Shown here piece by piece: positions 14,199-53,091 of a DNA stretch of 64,000 nt. Numbering within the stretch: position 1 is the stretch's first letter; each line of letters begins with the position of its first letter. The notes under the pieces were generated by a model, which had not been told where the DNA came from, made no database searches, and saw nothing but the letters and a program-made list of their open reading frames with translations. This DNA is from Hydractinia symbiolongicarpus (lineage: Eukaryota; Cnidaria; Hydrozoa; Anthoathecata; Hydractiniidae): the NCBI RefSeq assembly GCF_029227915.1, contig NC_079880.1:21266501-21330500 (forward strand). The letters are read 5' to 3'. The position numbers and the translations under genes were made by a program.

Positions 14199-17017
14199 TC
14201 ACTCATTATCACATTTGTTGCCTGTTCTTGTGCCTCGAAGACATAGTAGGCAGCTCCTCAACAAAGCAAAATTTAATCTCGTCTTAATCCATAAGCTGGA
14301 CATGCTTTTGGTAACCTTTCTTTTTGCAGCTAGATGTTCGGCCGCTTGAGAATAGAAACGACTACATTCCCGACTCATTCCACCAAAACACGTAAAAACA
14401 AGAGGGGTGAAAGACCCGTGTTCAACCTGCAGTATACGTTGGTTATACTGTCTTTTCTTTTCATTTTTGTTCTTCTTGTGTGCAGCTGGAAGACTCTGAT
14501 TCAAATTACATTTGGCAATCGGGTTGAAAACCCTGACGTCGCAAAAAGCCGTTTATTCTCTGATCCAGAATTCTCTGCTGACACATCAGCCCTTGCTTCA
14601 TTTGATGTGATTGCTGAGGGGTGTACAAATTCTTCACCTGTCAATTGGGTGAGCGTTCAATAACAACATGTGCACCTATCTCCCCAAGTATCTCGGGAGT
14701 CATATTTCTTAGTTCGTTATGCCATGATCATGCCACCTTTTGCACACGAGAGTGCATGCTGGAGGTCAAAGGGACTGCCGCATGCACATGTTGTAGGCAT
14801 TCTTTCTAAAGGTACGTTGTATCTAATTCTAATCGCATCCCAAAATGCTTCGTTTTCAAGAAAGAAGCCATATCGTTTTAAGGGAATAACTGTCAGCCGT
14901 ATTGATGCTCCGTTTTCTCCAGCAGCTTCTACAGATCTTAGTTTAAATTTACAGTTCATGTTCCTTTTAAGTTCTTCTAGGATAGCGGTGCTTTGTTTTC
15001 TCTTCTCGTTTTTGATTTTTGCTTTCAGCTTACTTATTTCTTTACTGCCGTCGGTGAAGATTTTCGTTTTACCGATTACGTTCAAGGTGGTAGCTTTAGC
15101 AACATCCCGCAAGTTTTGATATTCCTGGTCACTGATTTTTGATGGAACTATCAGACCCATCCATCCCACGAAGTCTTGCTGTTAATGAAAAGAGTGTTCT
15201 TTCCTCCTCAATAATGCATACGCTTGAAATAACACTTTAATAAACGTGTTTATGGCAAGATCAAGTGGCTCGAATAGGTTAGAAATATCCGTAATTGTTC
15301 TCATCACGTAGGTGTACCGATGTCTCAACCCATGGATGAATGCAGAAAATGCAGCATGTGGTTGAGTGCATGCAAATTCTGAGAGTTTGTTGACTTGTCT
15401 GACCCATTCGATAACTTTTTCCTTTACAAAACACTCTTTGTTGTCTCGAGCACCCACCACAGCACCTAGGTGACGATGGCCATCTGTATTAATTTTGATG
15501 TTAAAATCTTTAAACGTTTCCCTAGCGAAATCAAGGTATTCTTCTTTTATGACTAGCTATGACTTGGTTTCGTTTACGTGATAACCTAGATAAGGTCCAT
15601 AATTTAGTACTTTCATCCACCATTTCTTTAATTCAATTATTGTTCCAACGCCAGTTTAGTCACCGGCAAAGGCAACTTGAAAAAGATTTGTATTCTCTTC
15701 ATCCATAATCGTTGAAAGTAAGGGCATTAGCCTAAGAGCATACATGTCTATCGCTATGGGATCTCCTTGTGTGGTTCCTTCGTTTGAACATATCTCTTTT
15801 CCACCTGTTATGAACAACCGAGCTGGTCTTACATAGCAGTTGTTGATATATGTTGAAATTTCAGGACATAATATCTTTACATTGTGAAGAAGCAATTTCC
15901 GATTTATCGAATTGAAAGCGTTGCTTGCGTCTATTTGGATAAACCCATGTGTGGAATCACATTCAAACAAATCATGTACCGCATGTATTGACACTTCATA
16001 ACCGGCTTCTTGACCTGCACACATTTGCTCGTAACCCGTCTAGGTTAAAATGTCAGGTTTCACTATTAACATGACAGCTTTTGCCATAATTCTGCGGAGT
16101 ACTTCTTCTACTCCAATCGGTCGTACACCAGGACATTTATCAATAGTAATTAGGCGACAGTTTATCAGTGTTTTAACGCTTTCTGGATCTTCTAAGGTCA
16201 GTGTGCATAGTTGTCTGGTCATATTTGCTACAGCATGGCATAGATCATCGGAAGCATTTCCGTAGGTTGCATTACTCGTGATTTGTCTGCAGGAATCTGC
16301 ATCCAGACCAGATGGACCAAGAGAACCTTTTGTATTCGTACCACACTTTCTGATAAGCTCTGCGTTTATACCGTCAAAAGCAATGTCGTTAACGGGTTGA
16401 AGAGGTTCGTGCAATATCATGGTATCATTTACAGGACTGGCGTCAGGGTGTTTTTGTTTCGGATTTTTTATAACGTTGTCTGACAATGGCAGAAGTCCCC
16501 CATTTGCCTCTTCATCTAACAAACGTATAGCAGAGTTTATTTTGCCTTCCAGTATGAAGTAAGCAAACCTTCTAGCTAATTCTTTCGTGTTCTTTTGCTT
16601 ATTCAAGTTTCGGGGAAGTCTTTTTTGGATAGTCTTTGCCTCGTGAAGTTATGCATCAATGTCTCTTTTCTTCCATAGTTCAATTCGTCGTTGTAAATGT
16701 TTTTTAATTTCTGATGCTTTACATTTGGTTGAGGTCTTCTGTAGCATGAGAGATGGGAGGACCATCGCTGCTTTTAGACAGATGTCTCAATTTGGTGATT
16801 TTAAAGACCATTCATTAAAAAGTTTGGTAAGCTCATTAATAAATGATTTACCAGCAGCCCCTTTCGGAAGATCAAACAGGTTTCGTTTCCAGTACACTAA
16901 GAGATCGTATGCTTCAGAAATTTTATTCATTTCAAGTTCCTCATTTTCAATACCATTGTTATTTCTGTCATTTTTTGCGAAAATCCCCGTTAAGGCACCT
17001 TTGATTTTTTTGGACAT
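14199..17017 (-). pseudogene. Dead non-LTR retrotransposon, RLE-type (R2-like) reverse transcriptase
   Basis: One reading frame runs on the minus strand from ATG 17017 to about 14717 and then shifts by one base into 14504-14199. Recognisable RT blocks are the RPIGVEEVLRR segment, the IDASNAFNSINR palm motif, EGTTQGDP, and AFAGD where an active enzyme would have A-D-D. The thumb region (HRHLGAVVGAR) follows. Next is a CxC...H...C zinc motif (CACGSPFDLQHALSC), and then remnants of the restriction-like endonuclease region. In-frame stops lie at 16787-16789, 16649-16651, 16040-16042, 15656-15658, 15557-15559, 15182-15184 and 14717-14719. The element cannot encode an active protein. The zinc motif downstream of RT is typical of RLE-class elements (R2, NeSL, Hero, Utopia); the exact clade is not resolved. 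Confidence 0.85.
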
Positions 17018-30975: not shown

Positions 30976-32298
30976 ATGGAAGGTATAATATTTAAAGTGA
31001 TGCTTAGCAGCATTTTTATTGCACAAATCACTTCTGTACCAAATGAAACATTCTTCCAAGTCATATATTGGTCAGCAAAACCTTATATCTACAAAGGAGA
31101 GGACGGTACTATGCAGGGAATGATACCAGAAGTATTGGAATTAAGCGAATATTACTGCGGACGTTATTTTCAGTACAATAAGTTTATCGACTATGTATTA
31201 GACACTGGAGAGATGAATGATCACTTAGATTTAATGCATTCTAATGTCTCCTATGGAGAAGGTATTCTGAAGAATGTTTCAGAAGAAAAAGCGTTGTGGT
31301 TACCGTTCATGCAAAATATCAAAGCTGGAGATATGAAAAGATTGTTTAAAGAGCGAAACATAACAACACGAAATTTCTTTACTGTTAAAAAGCTGGTTTT
31401 AATCGTATCCAGTTCATCTATTCATCTAACGCAAAAGTTATGGGTAGGTGTATATAATTGCCGAATGCTGGTTATCACAGTCCTGTTGGCTTCAGTTTTT
31501 TTTGCAATGTTGATTTGGGTAGTTGAACGAACGCAAAACAAATCCAAAACCAGCACTTTCATCGAAGGATTCGGTATAAAAATGTGGTTCGCAATAACAA
31601 CGCTATCAACTGTTGGTTATGGTGATACTATACCAAAAACAATCTTATCAAGATTCCTGACAGCGCTCTGGATGATTTTCGGCATGGTGATGGCGTCAGT
31701 CATCACAGCTATAATCACTGATACGGTTACTAATGACTCCCATATGCAATTCCGTGGAAAACGCATCGCTGTTATAAATAATAGTATGGAAGCTGCATTT
31801 GCGAGACGGGCGTATGGTGATAACATTGTGAACACAAGGTCTAATAAGGAAGCCATTGATTTAGTTCGTAATGAAGAAGCATTTGCAGCTATTATGAATG
31901 CAGACATAGCTGCATGGCATCAGGACGACATACTTGGTGGTGAATTTCCAGTAAGTTATGTTGCAACAGTGCCGGTTCAATTTTCTGTCAATTTATGGGC
32001 TAACGTTAACTCGAAAACAAAGATATGGTTTGATTGCGTGCAAGAAAGATGGATAGAGATTGTGGATTATGTTTATGGTAAACACGTACAAGAGGTTGTA
32101 ACCGAGTCTTTAATAAATACCGAAGAAATATTAACTAAGCCACACAGTATATTTGTGTATGCAGGCGTTGGATGTCTGTTGCTCCTTGGCCTTACTTATG
32201 ATCTGATGAGATTCAAGTTTAGTAAGTGTAAATGTAAAAAACAGAATGAACAAGTATGCACAGAGAATGGGCATGTTAACGAAAACATTGCATTATAA
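30976..32298 (+). CDS. Ionotropic-glutamate-receptor-like channel with K+ selectivity filter
   Basis: An intronless 440-residue protein, predicted to be a plasma-membrane ligand-gated potassium channel. Order: signal peptide 1-20; ligand-binding lobe S1 about 23-140 (KPYIY near 35-39, matching the iGluR KPF[MI]Y region); M1 164-184; pore helix and filter ending TVGYGD 212-217; M2 226-249; lobe S2 about 256-385 with D310 in IMNADIAAW, at the position of the acidic ligand-contact residue of iGluRs; a further transmembrane helix 391-410; then a short basic Cys/Lys tail. There is no amino-terminal domain. The filter is that of K+ channels and bacterial GluR0, but the last helix corresponds to M4 of eukaryotic iGluRs. 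The S1 arginine that binds the ligand alpha-carboxylate is not obvious, so glutamate cannot be assumed. Candidate poly(A) signal at 32404. Confidence 0.85.
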   Translation: MEGIIFKVMLSSIFIAQITSVPNETFFQVIYWSAKPYIYKGEDGTMQGMIPEVLELSEYYCGRYFQYNKFIDYVLDTGEMNDHLDLMHSNVSYGEGILKNVSEEKALWLPFMQNIKAGDMKRLFKERNITTRNFFTVKKLVLIVSSSSIHLTQKLWVGVYNCRMLVITVLLASVFFAMLIWVVERTQNKSKTSTFIEGFGIKMWFAITTLSTVGYGDTIPKTILSRFLTALWMIFGMVMASVITAIITDTVTNDSHMQFRGKRIAVINNSMEAAFARRAYGDNIVNTRSNKEAIDLVRNEEAFAAIMNADIAAWHQDDILGGEFPVSYVATVPVQFSVNLWANVNSKTKIWFDCVQERWIEIVDYVYGKHVQEVVTESLINTEEILTKPHSIFVYAGVGCLLLLGLTYDLMRFKFSKCKCKKQNEQVCTENGHVNENIAL

Positions 32299-32403: not shown

Positions 32404-32409
32404 AATAAA
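32404..32409 (+). terminator. Candidate poly(A) signal AATAAA
   Basis: Canonical AATAAA lies 106 nt after the channel-gene stop codon. The motif is common by chance in AT-rich DNA, so only position supports it. Confidence 0.35.
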
Positions 32410-37500: not shown

Positions 37501-38406
37501 CCTTAAACGAGCCTTTGCATATCCAAAAAAAAAAACAATTATATAAGTCTGTGATGACTCGTTAAATAACTTTAAAAAACAAAGATACAGCTAGCAAAAA
37601 TATTTAGGAAATGCTATATTACTTTGGTTTACCGTTGAATTTACGGTTTATATTGCTGTTGAACTAATGTTAAATTATCAATATTAATGTGAAGTTGAAA
37701 TTTGGGTAATCAATGGTAAAATGTCGTATCAACCACATGTCGACCGGAATACATAAAAAACTTAACCCGTTTCTTCTATTGTGTACAGCATAAAGTATTT
37801 ATGAAAATAATGATGGAAAAGAAAGCTAGCAAGAAATTAGGGTTAAACAAAACACGTTTTTTAATTTGTTTAACTAGTTTAAATAAGACTTGATTTTAAA
37901 GATCTTCATCCCCTGTTGATGGTTTATCTAGCGATGAGAGAGACAAACTTTATAAATATTTTGCACGGCTTGGGTTGCCATATTTGATGAAATTAATGGT
38001 ACCTTTTGTCAGTCAAGACTGCTTTGTTTGTTTCGCTTTATCGATTAAACATTTGATTAACCCCACTTATTTTCTTATTCACTTTGTTCAACCAAACATA
38101 ACAGCATTATTGTGTACGTAATCTCTTCAAGGTTTTTATATTCTCGCTGTTCGAGAAATTTTTCCAGAAGAAACCATCGGTATAAGAGTCTATGTCACTT
38201 AGCCAGTCTTAATATTTCCTCAACTTATAGGGAAGGGTGAGCGGGTCGTCTAACCCGTACGAATAGAATTGACTTGTGAGTAAAATGGGGTGGGAAAGTT
38301 CTATTCACGCATGCGCTATCTTGCCTCGATTACTACGAAAATAAGTTACACTTATAAGAGTAGGATGAGAACCTTAAGTAAGTAGTTTTGGCGGGAAATG
38401 GTATAA
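34524..38406. other. Non-coding interval
   Basis: No well-supported gene. A weak 82-codon frame with one hydrophobic segment is noted at 37189-37437. The rest is AT-rich, with a TA-rich patch near 35260-35480. Confidence 0.45.
37189..37437 (-). CDS. Doubtful small single-pass membrane protein
   Basis: An 82-codon frame with a central hydrophobic helix of about 21 residues (FLIIQLVFLFIIAVLYLCA) flanked by a basic C-terminal half with two cysteines. It looks more protein-like than most short frames here, but there is no recognised family, splice structure or conserved motif. Confidence 0.22.
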   Translation of the reverse strand: MIAHYKEIIMTSSKYVPVNLCLSTEANFLIIQLVFLFIIAVLYLCAREIRAMLHKHEIFISARNTKCNFKFFAINADCEGTS

Positions 38407-38750
38407 TTCTTAATGATAATATCAGGAAAGAATATATATGCAAAAAATCTTCTTTTGTATAGTCAGAATGATGTTAGGGCGTATAGGCGTTAATATAACC
38501 AGAAACTAAAAAATTTGAAAACACATCGTCGAAATATCTGCGATAGAATAACGCCTTCTTACCTCCATAAGGTTTAAATTCTTAATGATAATATCAGGAA
38601 AGGGTAATTATGCAAAAAATCTTCTTTTATATGGTCAGAATGATGTCAGGGCGTATAGGCGTTAATATAACTAGAAACTAAAAAATTAGAAAACACATCG
38701 TCGAAATATCTGCGATAGAATAACGCCTTCTTACCTCCATAAGGTTTAAA
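38407..38750. repeat. 172-bp tandem duplication, two copies
   Basis: Copy 1 (38407-38578) and copy 2 (38579-about 38750) are nearly identical. They share TTCTTAATGATAATATCAGG at the start and TTACCTCCATAAGGTTTAAA at the end, with only scattered differences. Each unit contains GGCGTTAAT and ATAACGCC in inverted orientation. The low divergence implies a recent duplication or ongoing gene conversion. Confidence 0.9.
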
Positions 38751-50076: not shown

Positions 50077-53000
50077 ATGTCAACAGAACGGCCACGTGCA
50101 GCTCTTAAAATAAAGAACCCAATGAGGAAATCCTCTTTCTTTGACCAAAACACGCTGCCACTCGTACGCGCGAACAAAAGATGTAAAAGTCCGTTGATTA
50201 TCCGCAATCCTAGTCGTGACTCGCGAGTTATTATAAACGTACAAGGCCGGAAGTTCGAAACATATGAAGGTAAGTTTTATTTCCATTCCAAACAATCATT
50301 GTTTTGTGTTTAATGTTTTAGTTCCATGTTTATTCGGTATGATTAACTGAAATCACGTCGAATGACGAAAACTGAATTTAGGAGACTTGACCTTCGTTTC
50401 TTTTGTTTGTGTGTTAAGGTCAGTTTACATTAACATTCAAAGTGTTGAACAATTGTTGTGTAATAGTCACTGTAACAACTTCATTGGAAACACATGTTGT
50501 ACAAAAATAACCGTAAGAGATTTTGCACAACAAATCTTGTAAAAGACATTCTTTTTATCTCTACTGTTGCACAAAGTTTTGAGATTTTAATGGGAACCCT
50601 TCTTTGATTTCCCAAAATAAATCAGGAATGAATAAAGCCCTAAGGAACTGAGAATGAGTCTTGTAAAAAAACATCTTTATCCCATTTGATAGCATCTTGA
50701 AAAGAAATTATAAAATAAGCTAAAAGTCTATGTTTTCATTTCAATTGAGGATGTTATAATAATTCGAACACAGTAAAGACATCTACTGTCTTCAAAAGTT
50801 TGATCTGTTTGATCTGTTTGAAAGAATTAATTTTAGGAGTCGTTTGAATTGAAATTTTCGAATACCTCCTAAGGGCAAACCTACAGCCGACAACTGTGTT
50901 TATTAGATAAGAAAAACAAGTCTCATTTGTGTGCTAAAATTAGCATTTTAAAAGTCGACAGGCAAAAAAATGACAGGAAGGAACAACAAACAAACGTACT
51001 TATTGTTTTCAGAAAAGCAAATTTTTTTAAACTTTATTCTCATGATTTTTATGATTGAAAAATAGAAATACAAGCAAAAAAGAAAGAAAAGCGATAATTA
51101 TAATGTATGTTTTATGTATATACGTTGTTTTTCGTTCCAAATTTGAATAAACGACCCCTTTTTTCGAGGGAGGGGGCGCTTATTAGAGCAGGGACGCTTA
51201 TTTACAATTTTTTTCCTAACCCCGGTGCGCTTACTCGACAGGGGCCCTTTTCGGGCACGGGGCGTCTAATCTGTCCTTTACGGTACCTAAAGATGAGCAT
51301 ATTTGTTATAAACTACAACGATAACTAGTGATATGCACAGTTTTCCCTGTATCAGGAATACTGTAAGCAATTCTGCTATTTGTCACTAAAATATTTTTCT
51401 TTTAATTATAGCAACTTTAAACAATTATCCAGATACGTTGCTAGGTAACAAAAATGCAAGGGAAAGATTATTTAATCCGATAAGCGGAGAAATTATTTTA
51501 TCACGTGACCTGCAAATTTTTGAAGCAGTCTTATTTTACTATCAGTCGAAAGGGATTCTGGGTAGGTATTTTTTGTTCTATTACAAACCAATCTAGAGCT
51601 TGAAACTTAATGTTTTCCATCTTCTAGTTCTTAAATTAGTTTAGAAATATCGTGTCAATTTAGTTAATGCTGACCAATGAGTACAGATTTCCCTGGTGTA
51701 ATGAGTCTTGTCATTGAAAGGTTGGAAAGCTATGCGTCTATTTTTTCAAGCAAAAAAAAAAAAGGAAAACTTGTAAACTTCTAAATATCTGTATGATAAA
51801 TACAAAATAAAACTTTTGAACTTCAGTGTTTTAGGTTATTGTATTTCGTTAACTTAAAAGGTCCACTATATGATACATAAAGCGTTGTGTTGTAGATTTC
51901 CAAATCATCGACGCATGTGCCCTCCGTAAAGACAATCCTAAATATACATTTGTGCAATCTCTTATAAAAGACTCAACTTTTTTCTTCTTGTTAACTTTGA
52001 AGTTTTTTCTATATATTTCAGCTAAACCAGTTTGGGTAAGTGAGAATGAATTCGAACGGGAGTTACAATTCTACCAATTACGTTCGGTTAAAGAAACCTC
52101 GATCCCAGTTCCTAAGTCAAGAAAACTGGCACTCATTTGGAATTTAATGGAACACCCTCACTAGTCCATGTGCGCCATTATACTTTCCGTGTTTAGCATT
52201 TTCACTATTATTTTGTCGACAATCTCCTTTTGCTTGGAGTCAATGCCCAGCATAGTGAACACTGCTGACATTGATGCAAAACGCTATAATAATTTAGTAT
52301 TGTACTACTTAGAAATAACGTTTATAGCCTGGTTTACACTTGAATATTTGTTAAGAGTAGTATCTGCACCGATTCGTTTCAAATTTGTGACTTCTTTTAT
52401 GGGAGTAATCGACTTCACAGTTATTCTACCATTTTACATAGCTTTGTTTATGTCACCCACGCAGAGAGTGTTGAGTTTGCACGTGATACGAATAATTCGA
52501 ATGATTCGCGTATTTCGTATTTTTAAACTGACAAGATACAGCACCGGATTGAAAGTTTTGGGCAAAACGATATTCGAAAGTTTGGGCCAACTTGTAGCTT
52601 TGTTTTTGTGTCTGTTTTTGTCCGCCATTATGTTTGCAAGTTTGATATTCTATATCGAGCATACACCAGGGCATAGCCACGAGAAAAACACATTCGAGAG
52701 CATTCCCGATGCATTTTGGTACGTTGTTATTACAAAGACCACGGTGGGTTATGGAGATGTCATTCCTAAAACTATATTAGGAAGAATAGTTGCGTCATTA
52801 TGTATGGTGTGCGGTATAATTATCCTATTATGTTTACCAACCCCCGTATTTATTACACATTTTGGTCGATTTTATGAAAGGGTTATCCACAAACCTTTTG
52901 ATAACGACGGGGGTGCAGATACAATGTCTGACGTTGTTGAGAACAACCATTTATTAATTCCGACATGGTTGCATGACAGAGAATGGAAAAAAAGACTGGC

Positions 53001-53091
53001 CAATGACTATCAACAAAACTTGTGTCTGAATATCTATCTTAGTAACAGCAGTCTGAAGTCGACAATTAGTAGAGAAGTAGCTTTCTCTTAA
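50077..53091 (+). CDS. Shaker-type voltage-gated K+ channel, interrupted by one TAG
   Basis: Four phase-consistent exons: 50077-50269, 51412-51561, a 30-nt exon 51896-51925 and 52022-53091; 480 codons. T1 tetramerisation domain spans about codons 54-155 (VIINVQGRKFET, YPDTLLG, EAVLFYYQSKG). Then six transmembrane segments: S4 carries R/K every third residue (VIRIIRMIRVFRIFKLTR), pore filter TVGYGD, and S6 has PTP where Shaker channels have PVP. T1 lacks a HxxxxxC...CC zinc site, as in the Shaker (Kv1) subfamily. A TAG at 52162-52164 (codon 172) falls exactly at the T1-S1 linker, with coding sequence in the same frame on both sides. ATG 52168 could start a T1-less S1-S6 protein of 307 residues. 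All splice sites are intact, so this is a very recent lesion, a sequencing error or a polymorphism. Confidence 0.82.
51150..51285. mobile_element. MITE-like fragment in Kv intron 1
   Basis: GGGGGCGCTTATTAGAGC, a repeated GGGACGCTTATT, and right end GTACCGTAAAGGACAGATTAG (read on the minus strand) resemble the element at 18751-19099. The copy is GC-richer than its surroundings and degenerate. Confidence 0.4.

Follow-up and report, generated by a model that had tools for sequence, protein, structure and literature searches.

Genes for GluR0-like receptors with a K+ filter and an M4 helix form a multigene family in the genome of Hydractinia symbiolongicarpus

The 64,000-nucleotide stretch of DNA analysed here (the window; C6:21266501-21330500 of the host genome) contains an intact gene for a glutamate-receptor-like protein with a potassium-channel filter and a fourth membrane helix (M4). 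The gene belongs to a multigene family whose members are mostly single-ORF genes, so that what has to be explained is a receptor repertoire and no longer an odd receptor. We consider it rather probable that the gene product is a subunit of GluR0-like, ligand-gated K+ channels that lack an amino-terminal domain (ATD), carry M4 and have been expanded like chemoreceptors.

The window gene and its protein

The ORF (Table 1) is closed directly upstream by several in-frame stops, and its product matched its own locus in the host genome identically (G000:C6:21297476-21298795, E 1.1e-298). The original prediction had proposed the order S1-M1-TVGYGD(212-217)-M2-S2-M4, the lack of an ATD, and the joint occurrence of K+ filter and M4 in an animal genome; all three proposals were borne out. 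The layout is supported by the intact ORF, by hydropathy peaks at residues 3-22 (signal), 155-187 (M1), 222-252 (M2) and 389-411 (M4), and by profile homology of the S2 lobe, that of S1 being weak. An ATD was absent from the ORF, which leads from the signal peptide directly to S1 behind the upstream stops; the related protein P0006 (see below) starts likewise. The host was taken to be an animal because the window also holds genes for a rhodopsin-type GPCR, a bZIP protein, a GH18 domain and a Kv channel. The pore of the latter is 37% identical to that of the receptor over 75 residues.

Table 1. Features of the window, numbered from its first position
Feature	Position	Strand	Remarks
Single-ORF gene	30976..32298	+	440 aa plus stop; identical genome match
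Signal peptide, about residues 1-21	30976..31038	+	Hydropathy peak 3-22; passes 1.6 threshold
S1 half of extracellular lobe domain, residues 22-160	31039..31455	+	KPYIY...GMIPE start; 4 N-glycosylation sequons
M1 helix, residues 163-187	31462..31536	+	Hydropathy; structure model
Pore helix and K+ filter, residues 195-217	31558..31626	+	Sequence, Pfam, model
TVGYGD filter, residues 212-217	31609-31626	+	Within pore segment
M2 (= M3 of iGluRs), residues 223-252	31642..31731	+	Hydropathy; model
S2 half of extracellular lobe domain, residues 254-388	31735..32139	+	
M4 helix, residues 391-411	32146..32208	+	Hydropathy; model helix 392-417, pLDDT ~50
Basic cytoplasmic tail, residues 412-440	32209..32295	+	Charges +6/-3
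AATAAA, possible polyadenylation signal	32404..32409	+	106 bases past stop
Kv-type voltage-gated K+ channel, TTVGYGD	52168-53088	+	Further piece ~51411-51566
Rhodopsin-type GPCR, one ORF, 278 aa	33690-34523	-	Adjoins receptor gene, opposite strand
Reverse-transcriptase fragment, probably transposon remnant	15659-16039	-	PF00078, below cut-off
Long ORFs, 683 and 256 aa	22404-25222	-	First: weak polymorphic-repeat matches; second: none
172-base unit, two tandem copies	38405-38750		94% matching

In Pfam searches the protein matched the K+-channel pore profile Ion_trans_2 (PF07885) at residues 165-252 with E 1.4e-11, and Lig_chan (PF00060) below the cut-off (25.9 versus 30.8 bits, E 9.5e-6). With S1 alone and S2 alone as queries, no Pfam model was matched even at E 10, and the S1/S2 assignment therefore required proof of another kind. 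The motif SYTANLAA, defined for M3 of eukaryotic iGluRs in passages of PMC3483616, was not present in the window protein, which has VITAIITD instead. The AATAAA downstream is weak as a signal, since 247 such sites occur in the window. No Rfam family was matched in the window at gathering score, and ARAGORN (bacterial code) returned no genes.

A gene family in the host genome

With the window protein as query, 57 places in the host genome (480.9 Mb, 76 contigs) were matched at E 0.001 or better, and some of these are Kv-like. In all, 33 stretches (30 + 3) were retrieved; two places inside the window and 14 weak places were left out, and because of the latter the family size is a lower bound. 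At least 20 further intact, full-length single-ORF paralogs were found, giving 21 intact members with the window gene. C13 carries six of the paralogs (7.74-7.85 Mb) and C5 carries three (21.36-21.37 Mb). Three more are found on each of C11, C4 and C7, with a neighbouring pair on C7 and a short copy adjoining one gene on C4; C12 has two.

The K+ filter (.VG[YF]G[DE] after T) was kept in all 21 intact members, as were M1, M2 and M4 by hydropathy and a net positive charge in the 20 residues after M4. At least one sequon in S1 was present in 20 of the 21, and the signal-peptide hydropathy threshold of 1.6 was passed by 15, the window protein included. The protein sequences of the paralogs are under constraint: dN/dS was 0.205-0.473 in nine paralog pairs at about 55% identity or more, which are not independent of each other and do not include the window gene. 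Single-ORF-type copies outside the intact set were L096 3067-4089 (N-terminally short), L101 1064-2437 (no clear start), and L103 and L109, both broken by stops or frameshifts. L121 was kept outside the counts, L061 was kept out of the alignment with bacterial rows (A4) as a near copy of L060, and L115-L118 are Kv channels in appearance (by eye). Several paralogs (e.g. L096:911-2335, L105:669-2216) have longer charged C-terminal tails that look coiled-coil-like by eye and may assemble or anchor subunits.

A collection of 5.8 billion predicted proteins was also searched, with ranking by shared short words. Three relatives sharing S1 were obtained, none of them named: P0002 (94% identity, 440/440 residues, gapless), P0003 (53% identity, 280 aa, stopping early in S2) and P0006 (30% identity, 189 aa, stopping just after M1). 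The small number of matches does not indicate a rare gene, because the ranking uses shared short words and the host paralogs were not returned. The window protein and P0002 differ at 25 positions, all of them outside residues 127-256; the chance of this under an even spread is 0.00016 for a stretch that was picked post hoc. The window gene is not a chance ORF, given this 94%-identical copy of 440 residues and 20 intact paralogs with the same layout.

Five relatives contain introns (L108, L110, two in L111, and L112), and in all five a phase-2 intron splits the first Gly codon of GYG. The GT...AG borders were set by eye on the sequence, the donor of L111a being the least certain. P0006 ends approximately where the first exon of the intron-bearing genes ends. 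A pore tree placed 30 animal rows, namely seven intron-bearing genes and 23 single-ORF rows that include P0002 and P0003, in one group (96/85), which is weak because of its 87 columns; single-ORF and intron-bearing genes were intermixed within it. From this mixing, the single-ORF genes probably descend from intron-bearing ancestors through intron loss or retroposition, and this may have happened repeatedly. In flies, divergent IRs are mostly single-exon, and retroposition has been proposed for them in passages of PMC2924276; many chemoreceptor groups are described as intronless in parts of a review (PMC11526382). Family members in other animals may be recognisable by the phase-2 intron in the filter codon.

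A recent bacterial gene or an assembly contamination might be suspected from the single ORF and the likeness to GluR0. This explanation has a negligible probability in our judgement and was rejected: the locus is part of a 481-Mb animal genome, with GPCR, bZIP and Kv genes as neighbours, its kin carry GT-AG introns, and the protein has M4 and an S1 rich in sequons. The 20 bacterial K+-filter loci found, in contrast, end 160-168 residues past the filter, with no room for M4.

Relationship to bacterial GluR0 and to K+ channels

The S2 lobe is, by profile comparison, homologous to that of bacterial GluR0 with a K+ filter. An S2 profile including the 20 host paralogs matched the bacterial GluR0 S2 with an HHalign probability of 95% (E 1.7e-8, score 51.7), and none of 80 column shuffles reached this score (best shuffle 16.8). 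With the first four sequences, two of them complete in S2, none of 200 shuffles did so. The same S2 profile also beat its shuffles against the wrong lobe, GluR0 S1 (28.8, 0/80), and, compared with S2 lobes from two mammalian iGluRs, gave no match (48/80 shuffles reached the score). An S1 profile of 23 rows matched three mammalian S1s weakly (0/80 shuffles reaching the score) and each bacterial GluR0 set weakly (2/80); with four sequences S1 did not beat its shuffles (123/200, 166/200 (GluR0 S1), 20/100 and 12/100 reached the score). Over all these comparisons, homology of S1 is tentative.

Whether a structure model would show a Venus-flytrap fold had been named as a check in the original prediction, with a divided result. 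An AF2 model built with bacterial GluR0 relatives had Venus-flytrap topology at a mean pLDDT of 64, with low values (41-56) at residues 81-140 and 321-350, and the best 50 Foldseek matches listed were all iGluRs (E 2e-9 to 9e-8). A VIA search with this model gave amino-acid-binding proteins and GluR0 cores in the top rows; rows spanning both lobes fitted only to about 8-12 A. The model from the family's own four sequences, without bacterial rows, had a mean pLDDT of 34.7 and was rejected; since this version failed, the good model leans on the bacterial rows supplied.

Pore profiles favoured GluR0 over K+ channels in 20 of 23 rows, among them all 20 paralogs, with a mean over the 23 of +20.8 bits. 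The three rows of the window subfamily (P0001, P0002, P0003) favoured the K+-channel profile by about 5 bits, the window protein's own pore by 5.5 bits. An early reading of the pore as equidistant between GluR0 and K+ channels, made with a K+-channel set that was drawn by likeness to the window family and so is biased toward it, was dropped when the paralogs were included. Two P0005 pores with very long branches were left out of the profiles and of the later trees. In the pore trees, which are unrooted, the animal family, GluR0 and K+ channels formed separate groups with no sister relations shown; one tree did not hold the GluR0 group together, and in another this group included GluR0s without a K+ filter and GluA2. 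The placement of the family with GluR0 by the first pore tree was withdrawn in favour of the three unrooted groups.

According to one rival explanation, the protein is an ordinary two-TM K+ channel with unrelated flanks, its N-terminus inside and its filter facing out. The missing Pfam matches of the isolated lobes agree with this, as does the slight preference of the window's own pore for the K+-channel profile. In PDB sequence searches, moreover, the best 60 of 289, 357 and 466 matches were K+-type pores (Kv, KcsA, K2P, Kir, cyclic-nucleotide-gated), and the closest solved structure was that of the K+ channel Lmo2059 (E 1.7e-8), with a match confined to the pore. A best match of this kind had been foreseen as an argument against a glutamate-receptor assignment; that part came true for the pore, yet the S2 flank is not unrelated in view of its GluR0 homology. 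The sequons in S1, the basic tail after M4, the GluR0 preference of 20/23 pores and the iGluRs among the Foldseek matches listed also speak against a two-TM channel, which we regard as very improbable.

Slightly less improbable is an independent fusion, in which an animal iGluR or IR exchanged its pore for that of an animal K+ channel and the likeness to GluR0 is convergent. The separate groups of the unrooted pore trees, which do not decide which two are sisters, are compatible with such an event. It is opposed by the match of S2 to bacterial GluR0 and not to the two mammalian S2s tried, and again by the pores that favour GluR0 in 20 of 23 cases.

Prokaryote genomes were scanned with an alignment, and 292 relatives were obtained among 446 pattern matches. 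The best 80 were kept; 20 of them, plus P0010, have a K+ filter. When a single bacterial protein was the query, the 24 pattern matches in prokaryote genomes included no relative, and a scan of viral contigs with the family gave none among 151.

The window protein shares with bacterial GluR0 (Synechocystis GluR0; Group 1 of PMC2950845) the order S1-M1-P-M2-S2, the TVGYGD filter, the lack of an ATD and the S2 lobe by profile; the 20 paralogs also resemble it in the pore. The animal family differs in M4, the basic tail, the sequons and the absence of a conserved Arg, whereas the bacterial rows keep the Arg and the S2 acid. Because M4 is present in 21/21 members, the window protein is called GluR0-like and is not classed as GluR0. 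It resembles animal iGluRs (AMPA, kainate, NMDA, delta, epsilon, lambda) in M4, in the order S1-pore-S2 and in the fold of the model; unlike these, it has a K+ filter in place of the Q/R/N site, lacks SYTANLAA, ATD and ligand Arg, and its S2 profile did not match the two mammalian S2s tried.

Topology, ligand site and possible function

Four sequons are located in S1 of the window protein versus 0.87 expected (p 0.005), and S1 sequons were enriched in three proteins (4, 4 and 5 versus about 0.8; p 0.005, 0.003 and 0.0002). The S2 sequons of the window protein were not enriched (1 versus 1.02 expected). Its loops are weakly basic, with charges of +3/-2 between M1 and P and of +2/-1 between P and M2. 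Taken together, S1 sequons, basic tail and weakly basic loops suggest a topology as in GluR0 and iGluRs, in which S1 is extracellular and the filter faces the cytoplasm. A contrary point is the sequon N188 in the M1-P linker, where it would be unused under this inverted topology.

The ligand site was analysed in alignment A4, which includes 20 bacterial rows. The Arg of the ITAER motif is present in 20/20 bacterial rows, and the window protein has K105 in this column. The absence of an evident S1 ligand arginine, as predicted originally, was thus confirmed at a place where the local S1 alignment is uncertain; among the 21 members the column contains K, E, N, R, T, S, D, A or Q. No conserved basic residue was found in the ligand part of S1 among the 21 members, the only one in S1 being K154, which adjoins M1. 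The S2 acid is D in 19/20 bacterial rows and N in one; the window protein has N308, and the 21 members have N in 14, S in one and D in six cases. Because the Arg is not conserved and the S2 acid is mostly changed, classical amino-acid binding appears unlikely for most family members. The ligands are probably diverse and not plain amino acids, by analogy with chemoreceptors, since the clamp residues are changed and the genes are many, mostly single-ORF, and partly clustered or decayed.

In the favoured interpretation, four subunits would form an inverted K+-channel pore whose filter faces the cytoplasm. Closure of the extracellular S1/S2 clamshell on a ligand from outside would pull the M2 gate open; K+ would leave, and the cell would hyperpolarise. 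A ligand-gated, hyperpolarising and possibly chemosensory function of this kind is the reading that we infer to be best supported. The family may thus let an outside chemical quieten, and not excite, an animal cell, and the repertoire would give direct ligand-gated K+ inhibition a molecular basis.

The same architecture could belong to proteins other than ligand-gated K+ chemoreceptors. These might be orphan or modulatory subunits, as delta iGluRs can be, they might be gated by protein partners, by pH or by ions, or they might be constitutively leaky K+ channels. In favour of this, none of the basic residues in the S1 ligand region is conserved among the 21 members, and the S2 acid column has N or S in 15/21. 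In the opposite direction, the sequons and the S2 lobe are kept, dN/dS stays below 0.5 in the nine pairs tested, D is retained at the S2 acid column in 6/21 members, and IRs have lost the classical ligand residues yet are receptors. We regard this alternative as unlikely on the whole, though as the most serious of those considered.

IRs are not known to carry a K+ filter. Protostome IRs are, by description, otherwise an evolutionary parallel in having many single-exon genes, clusters and decayed copies (sections of PMC2924276 and PMC11526382), and according to passages of PMC2924276 they were not found in Cnidaria. Only tentatively do we go further and propose an inhibitory animal chemoreceptor family, undescribed in the open-licence literature searched: some dozens of K+ channels, derived from GluR0 and mostly encoded by single ORFs, which have M4 but no amino-acid clamp and which would answer diverse non-amino-acid cues by hyperpolarisation and would parallel the insect IRs with opposite electrical sign. 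If chemosensory, the family suggests what such animals may use in place of IRs. A repertoire in one animal would also mean that the K+-selective GluR0-like design was expanded and diversified and did not merely persist, and its many natural variants could be used to ask how non-selective glutamate receptors evolved from K+ channels.

In 2010 the combination of a glutamate receptor with a K+ filter was known in bacteria only, according to passages of PMC2950845. In the portions of the open-licence literature searched (PMC12332018, PMC11479355, PMC12226733, PMC3483616), AvGluR1 of the rotifer Adineta vaga was the sole natural animal K+-filter glutamate receptor named, and no K+-filter class was among those listed in parts of a metazoan survey (PMC6307864). 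Like the window protein, AvGluR1 is an animal receptor with a K+ filter and four membrane passes (passages of PMC12332018 and PMC11479355), and it is reported to respond to glutamate and several amino acids (passages of PMC12226733). In contrast, most of the window family is without the amino-acid clamp; AvGluR1 was compared by its published description only.

At two further loci in the host genome, L119:4893-7365 on C1 (about 21.98 Mb) and L120:5564-7535 on C4 (about 17.49 Mb), there is a gene split into pieces that has a TTVGYGDRAPKS filter. S1-like and S2-like pieces were recognised by eye in both, and an M4-like piece in L120. They make up a putative second, more distant class of K+-filter receptors, which may be the proper counterpart for a comparison with AvGluR1.
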